Shown piece by piece: positions 11,803-25,694 of a stretch of DNA of 64,000 bases. The notes under the pieces are model-generated. The model was not told the DNA's origin and did not search any database. It was given only the letters and a program-made list of their open reading frames with translations. Both the position numbers and the translations under genes were made by a program. Within the stretch, counting starts at the first letter, position 1. The number at the start of each line of letters is the position of its first letter. The DNA is taken from assembly GCF_900659635.1 (NCBI RefSeq), contig NZ_CAACVB010000003.1, positions 1-64,000 on the forward strand, written 5' to 3'. Source of the DNA: Actinomadura roseirufa (GTDB lineage Bacteria > Actinomycetota > Actinomycetes > Streptosporangiales > Streptosporangiaceae).

Positions 11803-12198
11803 ATGAAGTACCTGTACCTGATCTATGGGAACGCGGAGAACTGGGGGCACCCCATCTTCATGCGGCACCCGGAGTACCTGGCGCTGCCGGAGGAGGAGCG
11901 CACCCGCATCGCCGAGGTGGCGGACCGCCAGTTCCGGGAGATCGAGAAGACCGGTGAGCTGATCTCCGGGACGGCACTGGCCGACCCCGTGCTCACCCGC
12001 ACGACGCGGCCCCGCGACGGCGTCCCCGTCAGCACGGACGGCCCGTACATGGAGTCCAAGGAGCAGCTCGCGGGCTTCTTCGTGTTCGACTGCGAGACCC
12101 CGGAACGGGCCGACGAGATCGCCGCGATGTTCCCCGAGGCCCGCTTCGGCGCCATCGAGGTCCACCCGATCATGGACCTGTCCGGCCAGGAGATGTGA
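11803..12198 (+). CDS. YCII-related (DGPF-domain) protein
   Basis: 131 residues. It has the DGPF/YCII pattern KYLYLIYGN at the start, RPRDGVPVSTDGPYMESKEQLAGFFVFDC in the middle with the DGPY signature, and a closing strand GAIEVHPI. DGPF proteins are the standard genomic partners of ECF42 sigma factors; their biochemical role is unknown. The stop codon overlaps the GTG start of the sigma gene by four bases, so translation is probably coupled. Confidence 0.88.
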   Translation: MKYLYLIYGNAENWGHPIFMRHPEYLALPEEERTRIAEVADRQFREIEKTGELISGTALADPVLTRTTRPRDGVPVSTDGPYMESKEQLAGFFVFDCETPERADEIAAMFPEARFGAIEVHPIMDLSGQEM

Positions 12199-20449: not shown

Positions 20450-20767
20450 CTAGACGGGTCGCAGCCCGAGCGTCCGCCCGATCGTCTCGGCCGCCTGCTC
20501 GGCCGTGACACCGAGCTGCGCGCCGTGGTCGGGCCCGCAGTACCAGAGGAACGCCTCCCGATGCCGAGCCCACACCACGTAATGCGGCCCGAGCCCCGAC
20601 CGGATGAGATGCAGAATCTCCGTCCCGTGCGGAAGTATCGGCGCCACACCCGAGAACCGCCGGCTCACCAGCACCGCCAGCTCGGCCAGCCGCTCACCCG
20701 GTGAAGTGGACGCGGGGGGCTCTGCCGCGTCACCCGTCCCCCCGCGCCCACGCCCGAACTCACTCAC
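20450..20767 (-). CDS. small protein of unknown function, second gene of a pair
   Basis: 105 residues from GTG 20767, which overlaps the stop of the upstream partner by eight bases; GTG 20773 and ATG 20779 are alternatives. After a Gly/Pro-rich N terminus it has a compact domain: SPGERLAELAVLVSRRFSGV, TEILHLIRSGLGPHYVVWARHREAFLWYCGPDHGAQLG and a closing TAEQAAETIGRTLGL helix. No known domain is recognised. Small paired proteins of this kind often sit beside XRE regulators in actinomycetes, and an XRE-TPR gene lies divergently upstream at 21386. Confidence 0.65.
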   Translation of the reverse strand: MSEFGRGRGGTGDAAEPPASTSPGERLAELAVLVSRRFSGVAPILPHGTEILHLIRSGLGPHYVVWARHREAFLWYCGPDHGAQLGVTAEQAAETIGRTLGLRPV

Positions 20768-21122
20768 CGCCACACCCATGTCCCATCGGTGCGCCGAGAG
20801 TGGTGGCCACGACCAACGCCGCGTCCACGATCCGATCGGCCTCGGCGATCGGCTCACCCCACGAGTGGAAGAGCCACAACCGCCCACCGTCCTCCTCACG
20901 CGCCCGGCAGGTGACCGTGTCCGCCGGATGCGGCACCTCCGCACAACACCCCGCCGCCCTCGCATTGACCACGATCAACCCGCGCGGTTGAAGATCGGTC
21001 TCCAGCCCATAGGCGTGAAGCCGGGACATCAACGCCCCAAGCCGCCCAAAAGCCTCCGAATGCTCAATATCATCGGGGTATTCCTCCACGCCCGTCTTGT
21101 CCGCTTCGTTATCCTCGCTCAT
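20760..21122 (-). CDS. small protein of unknown function, first gene of a pair
   Basis: 120 residues from ATG 21122. The acidic N terminus (DNEADKTGVEEYPDDIE) is followed by a helix (FGRLGALMSRLHAYG) and a mixed domain. That domain contains RGLIVVNARA, a PADTVTCRAREEDGGRLWLF stretch and SWGEPIAEADRIVDAALVVA. The latter (W-G-E-P-I-x-x-A-D-x-I) looks like a conserved family motif, but I cannot name the family. It ends in an overlap with the next small gene, so the two are translationally coupled. It is divergent from the XRE-TPR gene, about 260 bases away. Confidence 0.68.
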   Translation of the reverse strand: MSEDNEADKTGVEEYPDDIEHSEAFGRLGALMSRLHAYGLETDLQPRGLIVVNARAAGCCAEVPHPADTVTCRAREEDGGRLWLFHSWGEPIAEADRIVDAALVVATTLGAPMGHGCGGE

Positions 21123-21385
21123 AACCGGACCTCGTTTCCGGCCAGGCCCCGGGTTCCCTGGTGTGAGCGCACCAGCCGGGGTCGTTCTGTCTTCAGGGAC
21201 ACGGCGATCATTAACTCCGGGGGTGCGGAGTCCGGCCGTGCCCTCAGTGAACTGCCGCGAAAGCGGTCACAGCCAGCCCACAACTCGTGCATCATTGGCC
21301 TGTCGACGAGGCAGTCCCCCAGCGCGACCACCGGACATGCCTTTCAAGGAACGGTCTCGAAGTAGACCTGAAAGAAAGGTCATAA

Positions 21386-22678
21386 ATGGGGTTAAAGCGG
21401 CGCCGTCTGGCCGAACGACGACGATCAATGGGCTACAGCCAGGAGGGCTTGGCCGAGCGGATCCACGTGGAACGATCAACGATCGGCCGCTGGGAACGCG
21501 CCGACGTTGATCCAATCCCATGGGTCCGTCCCAAACTCGCCCAAGCGTTGGAGATCACGCTCGACGAGCTGACCGACCTCCTGAACGACATCGAAGAAGT
21601 CCAGAAGCAGCAGGACGCACCCGGCATACCCAGCGGTACCGTGGATCGGAGTCCAACTCCCAACCCCGGGGACGACGACGTGAACCGCAGAGATCTTCTT
21701 CAAGGCGCCGCAGTCTTAACGGCAGGCGCAGCAGTCACACCAGTGCTCGCCGCTCTGGACAAAGGCTGGCGAGACAGTGAACCGCCCCTCCCGGGGGCGA
21801 GCATTTCCCAGGCCATGATCGACGACTGGGAGAACGCCTACCCCGTCCACGTGGCAAGTTATTGCACCGCCCCTCCAGCCGTGGTCCTGGCCGCTCTCGC
21901 GGCGGACTGGACCGAGATCGCGCCCCACCTCCGTCACAACCAGCCCGGCTCCGTTGGCCGCGATCTCGCACATGCGGCCGCCCGGCACGCATTCTTGATC
22001 GCCGGTGAACTGACGGAGATCGGGGACCGTCGTCGCTCGCTCCGATGGTGGTACAAGGCCCGAAATCTCGCGGACAGAGCAGAAGATCATCACATCGCCT
22101 CGTACAGCCGTAGCTGGGAGGTGACCACCAGGCTCTCGGACGACCGCGAAGATCCCAAGAGCCTCATCCCGCTCGTTCAGGAGGCGCGACGGCTTGCGGG
22201 AACACGCCCCACATCCCCCCTGATCTACGCGGTTGCCGTCGAAGCGGAGACCCACGCGGCGGCCGGGGACCTTCCGCTGGCCCTCAACGCCGTCCGTGAC
22301 GTCGAAGAACTGTACTCCCGGCTGCCCTCGACAGGGCGACAATGGGGCGAAGATCGCTTGCGGTACATCCAGAGCCAGGTCTACGCATGGGCCGGTGATG
22401 CAAAGCGTGCCGACGAAGCCCAAGACGCTGCCCGCGCCCACTTCAGGCCAGACGATTACCAGGCGGTCCAACTCAGCCTGCATGTGCCCATGCTCCACGC
22501 CCGAACCGATCCAGAACACGCCCTCGAACAAGCACTCAACATCCTCGACGCGCTTCCACCAGAACGACGCGTCGCACGTGTCCGATCAAATGCTCGCCGA
22601 GTCATCACGGTGCTCCCAGAAAAGGCGCGAGAACTCCCGGCCGCACGGGATTTGCGTGCGCTGACCACCGCCACCTGA
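21386..22678 (+). CDS. XRE-family regulator with twin-arginine-like linker and TPR-like C-terminal domain (copy 1)
   Basis: 430 residues. XRE helix-turn-helix at about 5-62 (LAERRRSMGYSQEGLAERIHVERSTIGRWERAD). A linker (70-98) leads to VNRRDLLQGAAVLTAGAAVTPVLAAL (99-124). That stretch has two adjacent Arg, then an Ala-rich hydrophobic run like a Tat signal in the middle of the protein. The rest (130-430) is helical TPR-like repeat: GSVGRDLAHAAARHAFLIAGELTEIGD, AVAVEAETHAAAGDLPLAL, YIQSQVYAWAGDAKRADEAQDAAR. Such proteins are probably peptide- or ligand-responsive regulators. A GTG at 21680 (codon 99) with GGGG upstream could start an HTH-less short form. A perfect terminator hairpin follows. 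Confidence 0.85.
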   Translation: MGLKRRRLAERRRSMGYSQEGLAERIHVERSTIGRWERADVDPIPWVRPKLAQALEITLDELTDLLNDIEEVQKQQDAPGIPSGTVDRSPTPNPGDDDVNRRDLLQGAAVLTAGAAVTPVLAALDKGWRDSEPPLPGASISQAMIDDWENAYPVHVASYCTAPPAVVLAALAADWTEIAPHLRHNQPGSVGRDLAHAAARHAFLIAGELTEIGDRRRSLRWWYKARNLADRAEDHHIASYSRSWEVTTRLSDDREDPKSLIPLVQEARRLAGTRPTSPLIYAVAVEAETHAAAGDLPLALNAVRDVEELYSRLPSTGRQWGEDRLRYIQSQVYAWAGDAKRADEAQDAARAHFRPDDYQAVQLSLHVPMLHARTDPEHALEQALNILDALPPERRVARVRSNARRVITVLPEKARELPAARDLRALTTAT

Positions 22679-22692
22679 CCCGAGACACGACA

Positions 22693-22727
22693 ACGCCCCC
22701 CGATCGTCCAGCACGATCGGGGGGCGT
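22693..22727 (+). terminator. intrinsic terminator of XRE-TPR copy 1
   Basis: ACGCCCCCCGATCGT (22693-22707) and ACGATCGGGGGGCGT (22713-22727) form a perfect 15-bp stem with a 5-base loop CCAGC. It lies 15 bases after the stop codon and is duplicated 1191 bases further on together with the gene. Confidence 0.85.
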
Positions 22728-22870
22728 CGCCCATCAGCTACGAAGGCGACGCGAGAAGACTTCTTCGCAGTCGAGACGAGCGCATAGCACATCAGGACCC
22801 TCATCAAAACACGCCAGGCATGCCCGACTGTGCCGGTTATCGGGGTTCAGCTCCAAACCAGGGGAATGAC

Positions 22871-23869
22871 ATGAACCGCAGGGATCTCCTCCAAAACACC
22901 ACAGTGTTAACCGCAGGCGCAACCATCGCACCGGTCCTCGCCGCTCTCAGCCGCGCCTGGCAGGACGGCGAGCGCCCCCTCCCCGGCACGACCGTTTCCC
23001 AAGGCATGATCGACGACTGGGAACGCGCCTATGATTTCCACGCGGCGAGTTATCGCTACGACCCTCCCGCCGTAGTACTGGCCGCCCTTGCGGCGGCCTG
23101 GACCGACATCGCGCCCCACCTCCGCCAGAGCCTGCCCGGCTCCGTAGGCCGCGATCTCGCACATGCGGCCGCCCGGCACGCATTCTTGATCGCTGGCGGT
23201 CTAACCGAGATCGGGAACCGCCGTCACTCACAACGCTGGTGGAGCACGGCCCGGCAACTCGCGGACAAATCACAAGATCGTGACCTCGCGTCTCTGACCC
23301 GCAGTTTTGAGGTGCTCTCGCGGAGCAACGATGACCGCGAGGACCCTGCCCGTCTCATCCCCCTGATCCAGGAGGCGCGACGTCTTGCGGGAACCCGTCC
23401 CACGTTCCCGCTGATCTACGCGGTGGCCGTCGAAGCGGAAGCACACGCAGCGGCCGGAAACTTCCCGCTGGCGATCACGGCGATCCGCGAAGTCGAAGCA
23501 CTCTTCGGGCGGCTTCCAGCGACGGGACCGCACTGGGGTGAAGATCGCTTGCGGTGTATCCAGAGTCAGGTCTACGCGTGGGCCGGTGATGCGAAGCGCG
23601 CAGGCGAAGCCCAGGACGCTGCCCGCGCCCACTTCAAGCCACATGACTACCAGGCGATCCAACTCAGCCTGCATGTGCCGATCCTCCACGCGCGAACCGA
23701 TCCGGAACACGCCCTCGAACAAGCGCTCAACATCCTCGACGCGCTTCCACCAGAACGACGCGTCGCACGTGTCCGATCAAATGCTCGCCGAGTCCTCGCG
23801 GTGCTCCCAGCAAAGACACGAACGCTCCCGGCCGCAAGGGAGCTGCACGCGCTGACCGCCGCCACCTGA
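22871..23869 (+). CDS. XRE-TPR paralogue lacking the DNA-binding domain (copy 2)
   Basis: 332 residues from ATG 22871 with AGGGGA six bases upstream. It is colinear with residues 99-430 of copy 1 without any indel: both spans are 999 bases and every landmark is shifted by exactly 1191 bases. It begins at the twin-arginine-like motif MNRRDLLQNTTVLTAGATIAPVLAAL, so the HTH is absent. The last 130 bases are nearly identical at DNA level. Alone it is a TPR-like protein whose N terminus looks like a Tat or Sec signal. It could titrate ligand from, or form dimers with, copy 1, or be exported. Which of these applies cannot be told from the sequence. Confidence 0.8.
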   Translation: MNRRDLLQNTTVLTAGATIAPVLAALSRAWQDGERPLPGTTVSQGMIDDWERAYDFHAASYRYDPPAVVLAALAAAWTDIAPHLRQSLPGSVGRDLAHAAARHAFLIAGGLTEIGNRRHSQRWWSTARQLADKSQDRDLASLTRSFEVLSRSNDDREDPARLIPLIQEARRLAGTRPTFPLIYAVAVEAEAHAAAGNFPLAITAIREVEALFGRLPATGPHWGEDRLRCIQSQVYAWAGDAKRAGEAQDAARAHFKPHDYQAIQLSLHVPILHARTDPEHALEQALNILDALPPERRVARVRSNARRVLAVLPAKTRTLPAARELHALTAAT

Positions 23870-23883
23870 TCCGGGGCACGACA

Positions 23884-23918
23884 ACGCCCCCCGACCGTCC
23901 AGCACGACCGGGGGGCGT
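23884..23918 (+). terminator. duplicated terminator of XRE-TPR copy 2
   Basis: Same hairpin as at 22693-22727, shifted by 1191 bases. One T-to-C change in each arm (GATCGT to GACCGT, ACGATC to ACGACC) creates two internal mismatches that do not compensate each other. The GC clamp of the stem remains, so termination is probably kept but weaker. Confidence 0.7.
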
Positions 23919-23974
23919 CGGCCATACTTGGGGATGGTCCGGGCCTACAAGCCGTCGGCGAGTTCTTTGACGGG

Positions 23975-24598
23975 ATGTTCGCCGGTGACCTTGACGGCGG
24001 GATCGGGGGCGCCGTGGGCTGGGACGCCGTCCCCGTCCCGCCGCTGATGGGCGAGATCGCGGAGAAAGGCGGGATCATTCCGGCATCGGATGAGCGTGCG
24101 GGCCGCAGTTGCTACGTGCTCGAAAACGCACATGATGTGCAGGTGACCTCAAGCGTCTTCTTCGTCTACGGGGACCGAGAGCACATCCGCTTCCTGCTGC
24201 GGAGCATCTTCGTCGACAACGACGATCAGGATTTCGTCAACGCGCACCTCGGCCAGACGGCCGACCTCTGGTTCATCGAGAACGGGCGTCGCGCCGGACA
24301 TGTTGATCTACATTCCCTCATCTCGGTGTATGACGACGCGGGCTCCAGGAGGGTGGAGCTCGACTGGCTCCGTTTCGATGAGCTCGTCCCGGTCGCCCTG
24401 AGCGGTTCGGTTCTGCGCCACGGCGAGGAATTGCGGCTTCTGGCCGCTCACGAGGATTTCGCCGAAACCCGGAGCAACCTGCCTCTGTTGTATCCCGACA
24501 CACCTATCGGCTACGGAATGCAGGTGTGGGTCGAGGGAGACCTGACCGACGAGCCATACGAGGTCTATCCGGATCCCGACCCCGCAGAGAGGGGCTGA
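23975..24598 (+). CDS. protein of unknown function, possibly 5'-truncated by the duplication
   Basis: 207 residues from ATG 23975. The same frame is open further upstream and translates sensibly (GPGLQAVGEFFDGM) until it runs into the duplicated terminator at about 23918. There is no convincing ribosome site before ATG 23975. The gene may therefore have lost its original start when the XRE-TPR copy arose. The protein is soluble and acidic, with SSVFFVYGDREHIRFLLRSIFVDNDD, a HLGQTADLWFIENGRRAGHVDLHSL stretch and a Glu/Asp/Pro-rich tail. No domain is recognised. Codon use is less GC-biased than its neighbours. Confidence 0.55.
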   Translation: MFAGDLDGGIGGAVGWDAVPVPPLMGEIAEKGGIIPASDERAGRSCYVLENAHDVQVTSSVFFVYGDREHIRFLLRSIFVDNDDQDFVNAHLGQTADLWFIENGRRAGHVDLHSLISVYDDAGSRRVELDWLRFDELVPVALSGSVLRHGEELRLLAAHEDFAETRSNLPLLYPDTPIGYGMQVWVEGDLTDEPYEVYPDPDPAERG

Positions 24599-24743: not shown

Positions 24744-25574
24744 TCAGCTCGCGTACAGGCGGTTCATCGCGGACTGGCTCTCGTCGTCCGCCGCGCGGTA
24801 GATCAGCAACCGCTGGTCCTCGTCCTGAAGTGGCATGAGCATGTCGAAATCCAGCGCGATCACACCGACGTCGGGATGCCTCAGCTCTTTGCGACCTCGG
24901 CCGTTGACCTTGACGTCCCGCTCGGCCCACAGTCGCGCGAACTCCTCGTCATGAGCGGTGAACTCGGCGATGAGGTCGGTCAGCGCGCGGTCGTCCGGAT
25001 GCCTGGCCCACGCGGCGCGCAGGTGGGCGATCCCCTGCCGTATGACGCGTTCGCGGTCGACGTAGAGCGCACGCGTCCCCGGATGCATCAGGCACAGCCA
25101 CATCGCATTGCGCTGCGACGGCGGCAGGGTGTCGAAATCCAGGTGCAGCCGCGTCATTTCGCGGTTCCAGGCCAGGATGTCGTAGCGGTGGTTCATCAGC
25201 ATGGCGGGCAGCGGCGACAGGTCGGCGACGAGCCGGGCTAGCGGCGGCGGGGCGGCGGTCGCGGCCTTCGCGGCGTTGCCGCGGCGCTGCCGGGCGAGAT
25301 CGAAGAGGTAGGCGCGTTCGTCGGGGGCCAGGCGCAGCGCCCGGGAGAGCGCCTCCACCACCTCCGCCGAGGGCCGCAGCCCCCGGCCCTGTTCCAGCCG
25401 CACGATGTAGTCGATGCTGACCCCGGCCAGTTCGGCGACCTCTTCGCGGCGCAGTCCGGGGGTCCGCCGAGGCCGCCGGCGCAACGGCAGGTCGAAATCC
25501 CGCGGGTCCAGGCGTTCGCGCCGGGCCCGCAGGAACGCGGCCAGTTCATGTGTCGTGTCCACGGCGCGGGTCAT
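24744..25574 (-). CDS. helix-turn-helix regulator with MmyB-like ligand-binding domain
   Basis: 276 residues from ATG 25574 (MTRAVDTTHELAAFLRARRE); longer in-frame codons run into the divergent promoter. Xre-type HTH at about 30-90 (RRTPGLRREEVAELAGVSIDYIVRLEQGRGLRPSAEV). The C-terminal MmyB-like domain (110-270) has RYDILAWNREMTRL, a FDTLPPSQRNAMWLCLMHP block and HPDVGVIALDFDMLMPLQDEDQRLLIYRA. In Streptomyces MmyB-like domains bind fatty acids. It is divergent from an aldo-keto reductase gene with a palindrome between them, which is the likely target. Confidence 0.9.
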   Translation of the reverse strand: MTRAVDTTHELAAFLRARRERLDPRDFDLPLRRRPRRTPGLRREEVAELAGVSIDYIVRLEQGRGLRPSAEVVEALSRALRLAPDERAYLFDLARQRRGNAAKAATAAPPPLARLVADLSPLPAMLMNHRYDILAWNREMTRLHLDFDTLPPSQRNAMWLCLMHPGTRALYVDRERVIRQGIAHLRAAWARHPDDRALTDLIAEFTAHDEEFARLWAERDVKVNGRGRKELRHPDVGVIALDFDMLMPLQDEDQRLLIYRAADDESQSAMNRLYAS

Positions 25575-25602
25575 CACGTTCGAGCGTACATCCAGGGTGG
25601 TA

Positions 25603-25615
25603 CTGGGATTCCCAG
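25603..25615. promoter_or_regulatory. palindrome between MmyB-like regulator and aldo-keto reductase
   Basis: CTGGGATTCCCAG is a perfect 6-1-6 inverted repeat in the 120-base divergent gap, 29 bases upstream of the regulator start and 80 upstream of the reductase start. It is the probable operator of the regulator; assignment by position only. Confidence 0.5.
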
Positions 25616-25694
25616 GAGATTCTTGCCCTTTTCCCTTGTTCACGGCGGTCGCAGAGTTGATTTCGACAACGGAGCGCAAGGACGGGAGAACACG

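Follow-up and report, generated by a model that had tools for sequence, protein, structure and literature searches.

Whether one regulator gene can give rise to two proteins, with and without the DNA-binding domain, is the question raised by a locus of Actinomadura roseirufa. The stretch analyzed, referred to here as the window, comprises positions 1 to 64,000 of contig NZ_CAACVB010000003.1 (64,000 nucleotides). It contains a gene for a regulator with an XRE-type helix-turn-helix (HTH) domain and a tetratricopeptide repeat (TPR) sensor (copy 1), followed by a second copy that lacks the HTH domain and begins two codons upstream of a twin arginine (RR) (copy 2). We found that the matching codon of copy 1 is a GTG preceded by a Shine-Dalgarno (SD)-like run, and that both the start codon and the SD-like run at this place are under family-wide selection. 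A conserved internal translation start thus probably yields an HTH-less form of the sensor, and copy 2 would be the same unit as a separate gene.

Two copies of the regulator in the window

The features of the two copies are as follows.

21386..22678, + strand: copy 1 long form, 430 amino acids, with XRE HTH, linker, RR segment and TPR sensor (open reading frame; HTH_3, HTH_31 and NF053720)
21407..21571, + strand: HTH domain of copy 1, residues 8-62 (PF01381, 4.8e-08)
21614..21679, + strand: linker, with DNA conserved in own-genome paralogs whose HTH types appear to differ
21668..21671, + strand: internal SD-like GGGG, 8 bases 5' of the putative internal start (sequence; family-wide pairing energies)
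21680..21682, + strand: putative internal start codon GTG, codon 99 of copy 1 (sequence, codon test, tree)
21680..22678, + strand: predicted short form, an HTH-less TPR sensor of 332 amino acids (from the codon, SD and tree tests)
21686..21691, + strand: twin arginine, residues 101-102, nearly invariant in alignment A5, the rows of which were picked for RR
21692..21760, + strand: hydrophobic segment resembling a twin-arginine translocation (Tat) signal, of low model confidence (the linker 5' of it is lower still)
22689..22729, + strand: GC-rich hairpin 3' of copy 1 (-32.1 kcal/mol, z -6.5)
22860..22864, + strand: SD-like AGGGG of copy 2 (sequence)
22871..23869, + strand: copy 2, an HTH-less TPR sensor of 332 amino acids, with ATG at the matching place (alternative in-frame ATG at 22820)
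23880..23920, + strand: GC-rich hairpin 3' of copy 2 (-25.8 kcal/mol, z -3.2)

At an offset of 1191, positions 21680-22728 matched copy 2 with 81.2% identity and no indel, compared with 24-31% at neighboring offsets. When identity was counted per 30-base step at this offset, 23/30 bases were identical from 21680 and 10/30, the chance level, in the preceding step. The similarity of the copies therefore begins at the start codon located two codons 5' of RR, and the GAC codon immediately 5' of this start is common to both copies. An earlier sequence-only reading of this DNA had described a tandem duplicate colinear from codon 99 of copy 1, with a GTG and an upstream GGGG in copy 1 at the codon that matches the copy 2 start, and these observations were reproduced. 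It had also claimed that no indel occurs through the terminators; the alignment was free of indels to 22728 and both copies end in similar hairpins, but a scan for T-rich terminators called none after either copy. Likewise, copy 2 does have a start at RR and a hydrophobic run as described, although another in-frame ATG, which the open reading frame (ORF) finder chose, lies 17 codons upstream of it at 22820.

Copy 1 scored 33.4 with PF01381 (cut-off 23) and 29.3 with PF13560 (cut-off 27). A Pfam scan of copy 2 gave zero matches, and copy 2 therefore has no HTH, in agreement with the sequence-only reading. The copy 1 protein also belongs to the NsdA family NF053720, with 101.7 bits over nearly the full profile against a cut-off of 75, while copy 2 reached 74.6 bits as a cut-out protein and 76.6 bits in a genome scan. 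The comparison of the two copies over 333 codon positions (stop included) revealed 181 identical, 72 synonymous and 80 non-synonymous positions, and a Nei-Gojobori count gave dS 0.49, dN 0.15 and dN/dS 0.30. By this measure, the copies appear to have diverged as under purifying selection, and copy 2 is consequently a poor fit to a decaying remnant. Nor is copy 2 a recent slip, since its nearest relatives among the 144 family members described below, copy 1 and another own-genome paralog, share only 75.9% protein identity with it. A tblastn search of the copy 1 sensor against plasmids gave no match.

The regulator family

Related loci were gathered from the genus, family, order, class and phylum and from named collections using sensor profiles that begin 3' of RR, so that the search was blind to the start codon. 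ORFs identical over 100 sensor residues were counted once, and ORFs shorter than 150 codons, rows below 60 bits and rows with a profile match beginning after position 60 were excluded. This procedure retained 166 distinct ORFs, 144 of them with RR at the expected place; because RR was required for entry, its presence in the 144 is circular. The register of two rows, each with two RR candidates, was corrected by hand, which moved the count of start codons from 128/144 to 130/144. Among the 22 further ORFs without RR, several are fragments and few have an SD-backed start near the domain border. In the phylum search, 7 candidates were scored per genome, so absences there mean little, and the matches in named genomes were eight, all from Actinomadura.

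In the window's own genome, 68 places matched NF053720, many of them weakly, and 29 matched sensor profile A1 at E<=1e-25. The sensor-profile matches numbered 19 in a second genome of the genus (G007) and 1-6 in 14 other searched genus genomes. The expansion of the sensor family is thus uneven and occurs at the species level.

Selection at the putative internal start codon

Nearly all members of the first own-genome set have ATG or GTG two codons 5' of the twin arginine; the exceptions are two paralogs on contig C63, of which one (L020) has GAG and the other is degenerate. The degenerate paralog, located near L020 around position 12182 of that contig, has lost the start and RR (YCGDLLQ) and kept the linker and the sensor. 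Among the 144 RR-bearing ORFs, the codon at the site was GTG in 84, ATG in 44 and TTG in 2, giving a start codon in 130/144. Where the site encodes Val, the codon was GTG in 84/87 rows, compared with 8-64% in the 23 further columns that contain 30 or more Val.

A tree was built with FastTree without the first 20 residues, and changes at the site were counted on it. GTG and ATG were exchanged at least 16 times, with the residue altered each time, whereas GTG and another Val codon were exchanged twice, compared with 16-23 such changes at eight control columns that contain 60 or more Val. With frequent swaps between GTG and ATG and rare silent Val changes, the pattern is that of selection for a start codon and not for Val or Met. 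The GTG at the site also stood out in synonymous conservation among 17 close orthologues. A dip in synonymous rate over the SD-like run was considered as further support and dropped, since only the GTG stood out in this 17-row group. In L013 and its orthologues (the VLRRTLLQ group, 17 rows), AGGAGG lies five bases 5' of the internal GTG, which is itself about 190-320 codons into the open frame.

Shine-Dalgarno pairing and RNA folding around the site

The anti-SD sequence and the Tat hallmarks used here as criteria are general knowledge. Pairing with the anti-SD sequence was computed on bases -18 to -4. The mean over the 144 rows was -7.45 kcal/mol, compared with -5.61 kcal/mol (sd of mean 0.20) for synonymous recodings, and the mean at 1847 other in-frame ATG or GTG codons of the same ORFs was -2.57 kcal/mol. 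For 109 less redundant rows, the corresponding values were -6.62 and -4.99 for the site and its synonymous recodings. Judged by these energies, the SD-like run at the site is stronger than synonymous recoding predicts.

Six rows have a codon that is neither a start, ACG nor Val, and pairing was weak in five of them (0.4, 0.4, -1.5, -2.0 and -2.5) and kept at -8.2 in the sixth, the GAC row. The GTA, GTT and GTC rows gave -6.7, -6.7 and -10.3, respectively. ACG occupies the place of the internal start in five relatives (L129, L130, L132, L137 and L125), all with strong pairing (-8.7 to -12.5); ACG could be weakly active as a start codon, or the site could serve a different purpose there.

RNA structure that might hide the start was not seen at either copy: compared with shuffles, the copy 1 region was less structured (z +1.75) and the copy 2 site was about average (z +0.55).

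Replication in a second subfamily

The main prediction on the start codon was fixed before the last two genome searches. These added 12 loci, of which genus g81, probably Streptomyces, contributed 11 and family f6 one. As predicted, a start codon was present in all nine RR-bearing new loci (GTG in 8 and ATG in 1); of the other three, two had lost RR and the start together and one was a fragment.

A second subfamily, which partly overlaps the 144 rows, comprises 24 loci from plasmids of Streptomyces virginiae, S. avidinii, S. yangpuensis and two Streptomyces sp., from Nocardia farcinica and from further genomes. It is patchy, with matches in 10/61 genomes of genus g81 and 2/81 of family f6. All 21 of its RR-bearing loci have a start codon at the site, including two TTG. 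Val at the site was encoded by GTG in 18/18 cases, compared with 6-67% in 12 other Val columns, for which about 35-50% was predicted. The HTH of this subfamily lies close to the site and the linker is different, which makes the start and RR the common feature of the two groups. The sequence-only reading had suggested that an HTH-less form might be made from both loci; as a family property, this is strongly supported by the codon, SD, tree and second-subfamily tests. Six Streptomyces plasmid records (five distinct proteins) are annotated with the upstream start only, and the Nocardia farcinica stretch has no annotation.

Sensor-only genes and the linker

We examined 11 copies without an intact HTH, in which the open sensor frame spans 328-336 residues. 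They stem from the window genome, from a second genome of its genus, from one more genome of the family and from a named Actinomadura. A Pfam scan of three of them (copy 2 and one each at L183 and L032) gave no match, and the remaining copies were judged by the open frame before the motif, which was 31-55 codons and, in one case, four. In two sensor-only copies of G007, the site codon is the first in-frame start after the upstream stop. Eight of the copies are preceded on the same strand by an HTH-bearing copy, up to about 4.2 kb away; they occupy six loci in three genomes, namely the one in the window, one on contig C89 of the same genome, three in G007 and one in Actinomadura sp. J1-007. A sensor-only copy on contig C338 of the window genome is near the contig end, and at L082 an apparent partial HTH is still present upstream.

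The linker DNA is common to copy 1 and ten own-genome loci at 81-92% identity, and to five more at 71-80%. In particular, window positions 21614-21687 match L028, L029, L033, L034, L036, L037, L038 and L046 at 83-92% over 57-75 bases. As the HTH types of these paralogs appear to differ, the linker could possibly be a joint for recombinational swapping of DNA-binding domains.

Other genes surround the two copies. Two divergent, overlapping ORFs on the minus strand 5' of copy 1 (20450-20965 and 20760-21122) gave no Pfam match, and a similar ORF, compared by eye, adjoins another paralog (L021). Close to copy 2 is an HTH regulator with an MmyB-like ligand-binding domain at 24744-25679 on the minus strand (PF17765, 1.1e-47).

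The twin-arginine segment

Both copies carry RR followed by a hydrophobic stretch, and an internal RR motif was found in other XRE-TPR proteins of the family, where the sequence-only reading had proposed to look for it. The peak hydrophobicity of the segment over 13 residues was 1.62 on average, which lies among the values of the genome's own Tat signals and above that of TPR tiles (0.66). In a six-frame scan of the genome with TIGR01409, copy 1 (21.5) and copy 2 (19.1) were above the cut-off of 16.7 and stood among apparent Tat substrates. As cut-out proteins, they were just below it (16.2 and 16.5); with PF10518, copy 1 scored 21.7 against a cut-off of 22.7 and copy 2 gave no match. A strict AxA site was present in 29/144 internal segments and absent from 115/144, with a TPR background of 44%, compared with 10/11 hand-picked Tat signals of the same genome, for which a slightly different span was scanned. 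We also observed that RR was retained in several relatives that had lost the start codon, and that 50/144 sensors have an odd number of Cys.

In the middle 90% of 142 rows, 40-49 residues separate RR from a conserved Trp of the sensor. The open frame 5' of the motif, a rough proxy for the N-terminal part, ranged from 77 to 328 codons (5th-95th percentile). As the distance to the sensor Trp is nearly fixed and the upstream part is variable, RR seems to be part of the sensor module. The AlphaFold models of copy 1 (pLDDT 88) and of a second-subfamily member (pLDDT 87) had HTH and TPR domains mostly above 90. Between these domains, the RR segment was modelled as a low-confidence helix, with pLDDT values of 56-60 in copy 1 and 48 in the second-subfamily member. 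A structural linker helix as the reason for RR was not supported, given the low confidence in both models, and a role of RR as a DNA contact of the HTH is unlikely, as the gap between HTH and RR is approximately 38 residues in copy 1 and fewer than 10 in L159.

Proposed mechanism and alternative explanations

Copy 1 belongs to a large actinomycete family of one-component regulators with an XRE HTH and a TPR sensor, NsdA-like in sequence and possibly RRNPP-like in fold. In most genes of the family, a conserved internal GTG or ATG with its own SD lies between the DNA-binding domain and the sensor, and a single mRNA would give a long DNA-binding form and a short HTH-less form beginning M-x-R-R. 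The short form would most likely be cytosolic and would pair with the long form or hold a shared ligand, thereby setting the response threshold, as in the TipAS/TipAL and McrBS/McrBL pairs discussed below. The short form is probably a cytosolic modulator, and a dominant-negative or partner role would fit best. Copy 2 would be a dedicated sensor-only partner with its own expression.

Several observations weigh against an internal start as the explanation. The site is not a start codon in 14/144 rows (ACG in five; GTA, GTT, GTC, GCC, CAG, GAG, GAT, GAC and ACC in one each), which makes conservation of the start incomplete across branches. The amino acids supply part of the SD strength, since the synonymous null is already -5.6. 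In the 17 orthologues, another of 19 Val columns matches the site GTG in invariance, and Glu and Asp codons that overlap the SD show no more conservation than those elsewhere. Most sensor-only copies (9/11) have at least one other in-frame start upstream, and the family rows were drawn mostly from the window's own family. The 50-base RNA at the site folded more weakly than other windows of the same ORFs in 89% of rows (mean -11.8 vs -15.7); this provides no separate support, because composition explains most of the effect (GC is 62% around the site and 69% elsewhere, and composition-matched shuffles leave only z +0.29). Finally, RR is invariant yet poorly modelled, and some other factor may read it.

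The sequence-only reading had proposed an HTH-less or exported sensor, or a dominant-negative partner. An internal start making a Tat-targeted product, with an exported or membrane-attached sensor probing the exterior and the long form regulating within the cell, would account for the hydrophobicity of the segment, the scores in the six-frame scan, the near-constant spacing of the motif to the sensor and not to the HTH, and a segment that is not confidently modelled into either domain. We nevertheless regard it as unlikely: strict AxA sites are scarce compared with the hand-picked Tat signals, RR outlives the loss of the start codon, the cut-out proteins score just under the cut-offs, an odd Cys number occurs in 50/144 sensors, and a DNA-binding domain 5' of an export signal would risk mislocalization of the regulator. 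Exported sensors were therefore demoted as the leading reading on the AxA and start-loss evidence, and Tat export is not supported by the sequences. The remark that copy 2 starts as an exported protein would is accurate for the RR and the Tat-like hydrophobicity; export itself was only an interpretation, and the Tat-model scores fall on both sides of the cut-offs. It is rather improbable that the segment is an uncleaved Tat anchor, with a transmembrane long form (HTH inside, TPR outside) and a short form serving as an exported or membrane-tethered decoy; a single gene would then govern how an external signal is read and how it is buffered.

The start could also be a fossil, if sensor genes once began at the site and were fused to varied HTHs by recombination at the DNA level. 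The shared linker DNA of ten own-genome loci, whose HTH parts look different, and the existence of HTH-less genes point that way, but a fossil would drift to other Val codons, and the two such changes against at least 16 swaps between GTG and ATG, together with the repetition of the pattern in a second subfamily, whose linker and HTH spacing differ, make a relic very improbable. The least credible explanation is that copy 2 is a truncated, decaying and functionless duplicate. It has indeed no HTH, and a scan of 21100-24000 found no sigma-70-like promoter, although such scans are weak in high-GC actinomycetes; the same scan gave no internal promoter, which is weak evidence in such organisms. 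However, the dN/dS between the copies, 332 codons left open with an SD of their own, and the recurrence of sensor-only copies downstream of HTH-bearing ones at six loci argue against decay, and the 11 sensor-only copies from several genomes do not fit a remnant confined to this strain. A conserved internal start with a sensor-only product thus remains the probable explanation.

Comparison with known systems

Copy 1 resembles NsdA in its nearly full-length NF053720 match, but the best own-genome match to this profile (C233) showed no RR motif on a scan. The RRNPP receptors (Rap, NprR, PlcR and AimR) have the same HTH and TPR architecture, with structural alignment Z-scores of 14-20, although the TPR part aligned as well with the unrelated TPR proteins APPBP2 (the top row) and LGN. 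None of the Foldseek matches of the copy 1 model reached E <= 0.001. Rap proteins are relatives that lack an HTH; the difference here is that the long and HTH-less kinds would come from one gene. Internal translation has reportedly been described for Cas11b. Among the titles and abstracts that searches of open-access text retrieved, none reports an internal start in XRE-TPR regulators, and the excerpts of PMC10075063, PMC3878966, PMC10924467 and PMC4117421 contained nothing on the family. As described in an excerpt of PMC12707154, internal initiation in McrB of E. coli gives a form without the DNA-binding domain that damps activity; McrB is a restriction ATPase and not a transcription regulator.

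Current annotation gives one product per gene, and the six Streptomyces records list the long protein only. Should the internal start be in use, a large group of actinomycete regulators, with 29 matches in this genome alone, would work as a two-protein module with a built-in sensor-only partner, and the design and reading of knock-outs, overexpression and DNA-binding tests of such regulators would change.

The nearest documented system that we found is TipA of Streptomyces lividans, in which, according to an excerpt of PMC7762955, TipAL and the HTH-less TipAS arise from alternative start codons, two in number. The XRE-TPR genes are similar in having an internal start codon and SD, both under selection in this family, between the DNA-binding and sensor domains. 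They differ in that TipA is of the MerR type with a TipAS domain, whereas this family has an XRE-type HTH and a TPR sensor, the start adjoins an RR motif, and separate sensor-only copies exist. The XRE-TPR case would be a family-wide variant of the TipA kind and not TipA itself.

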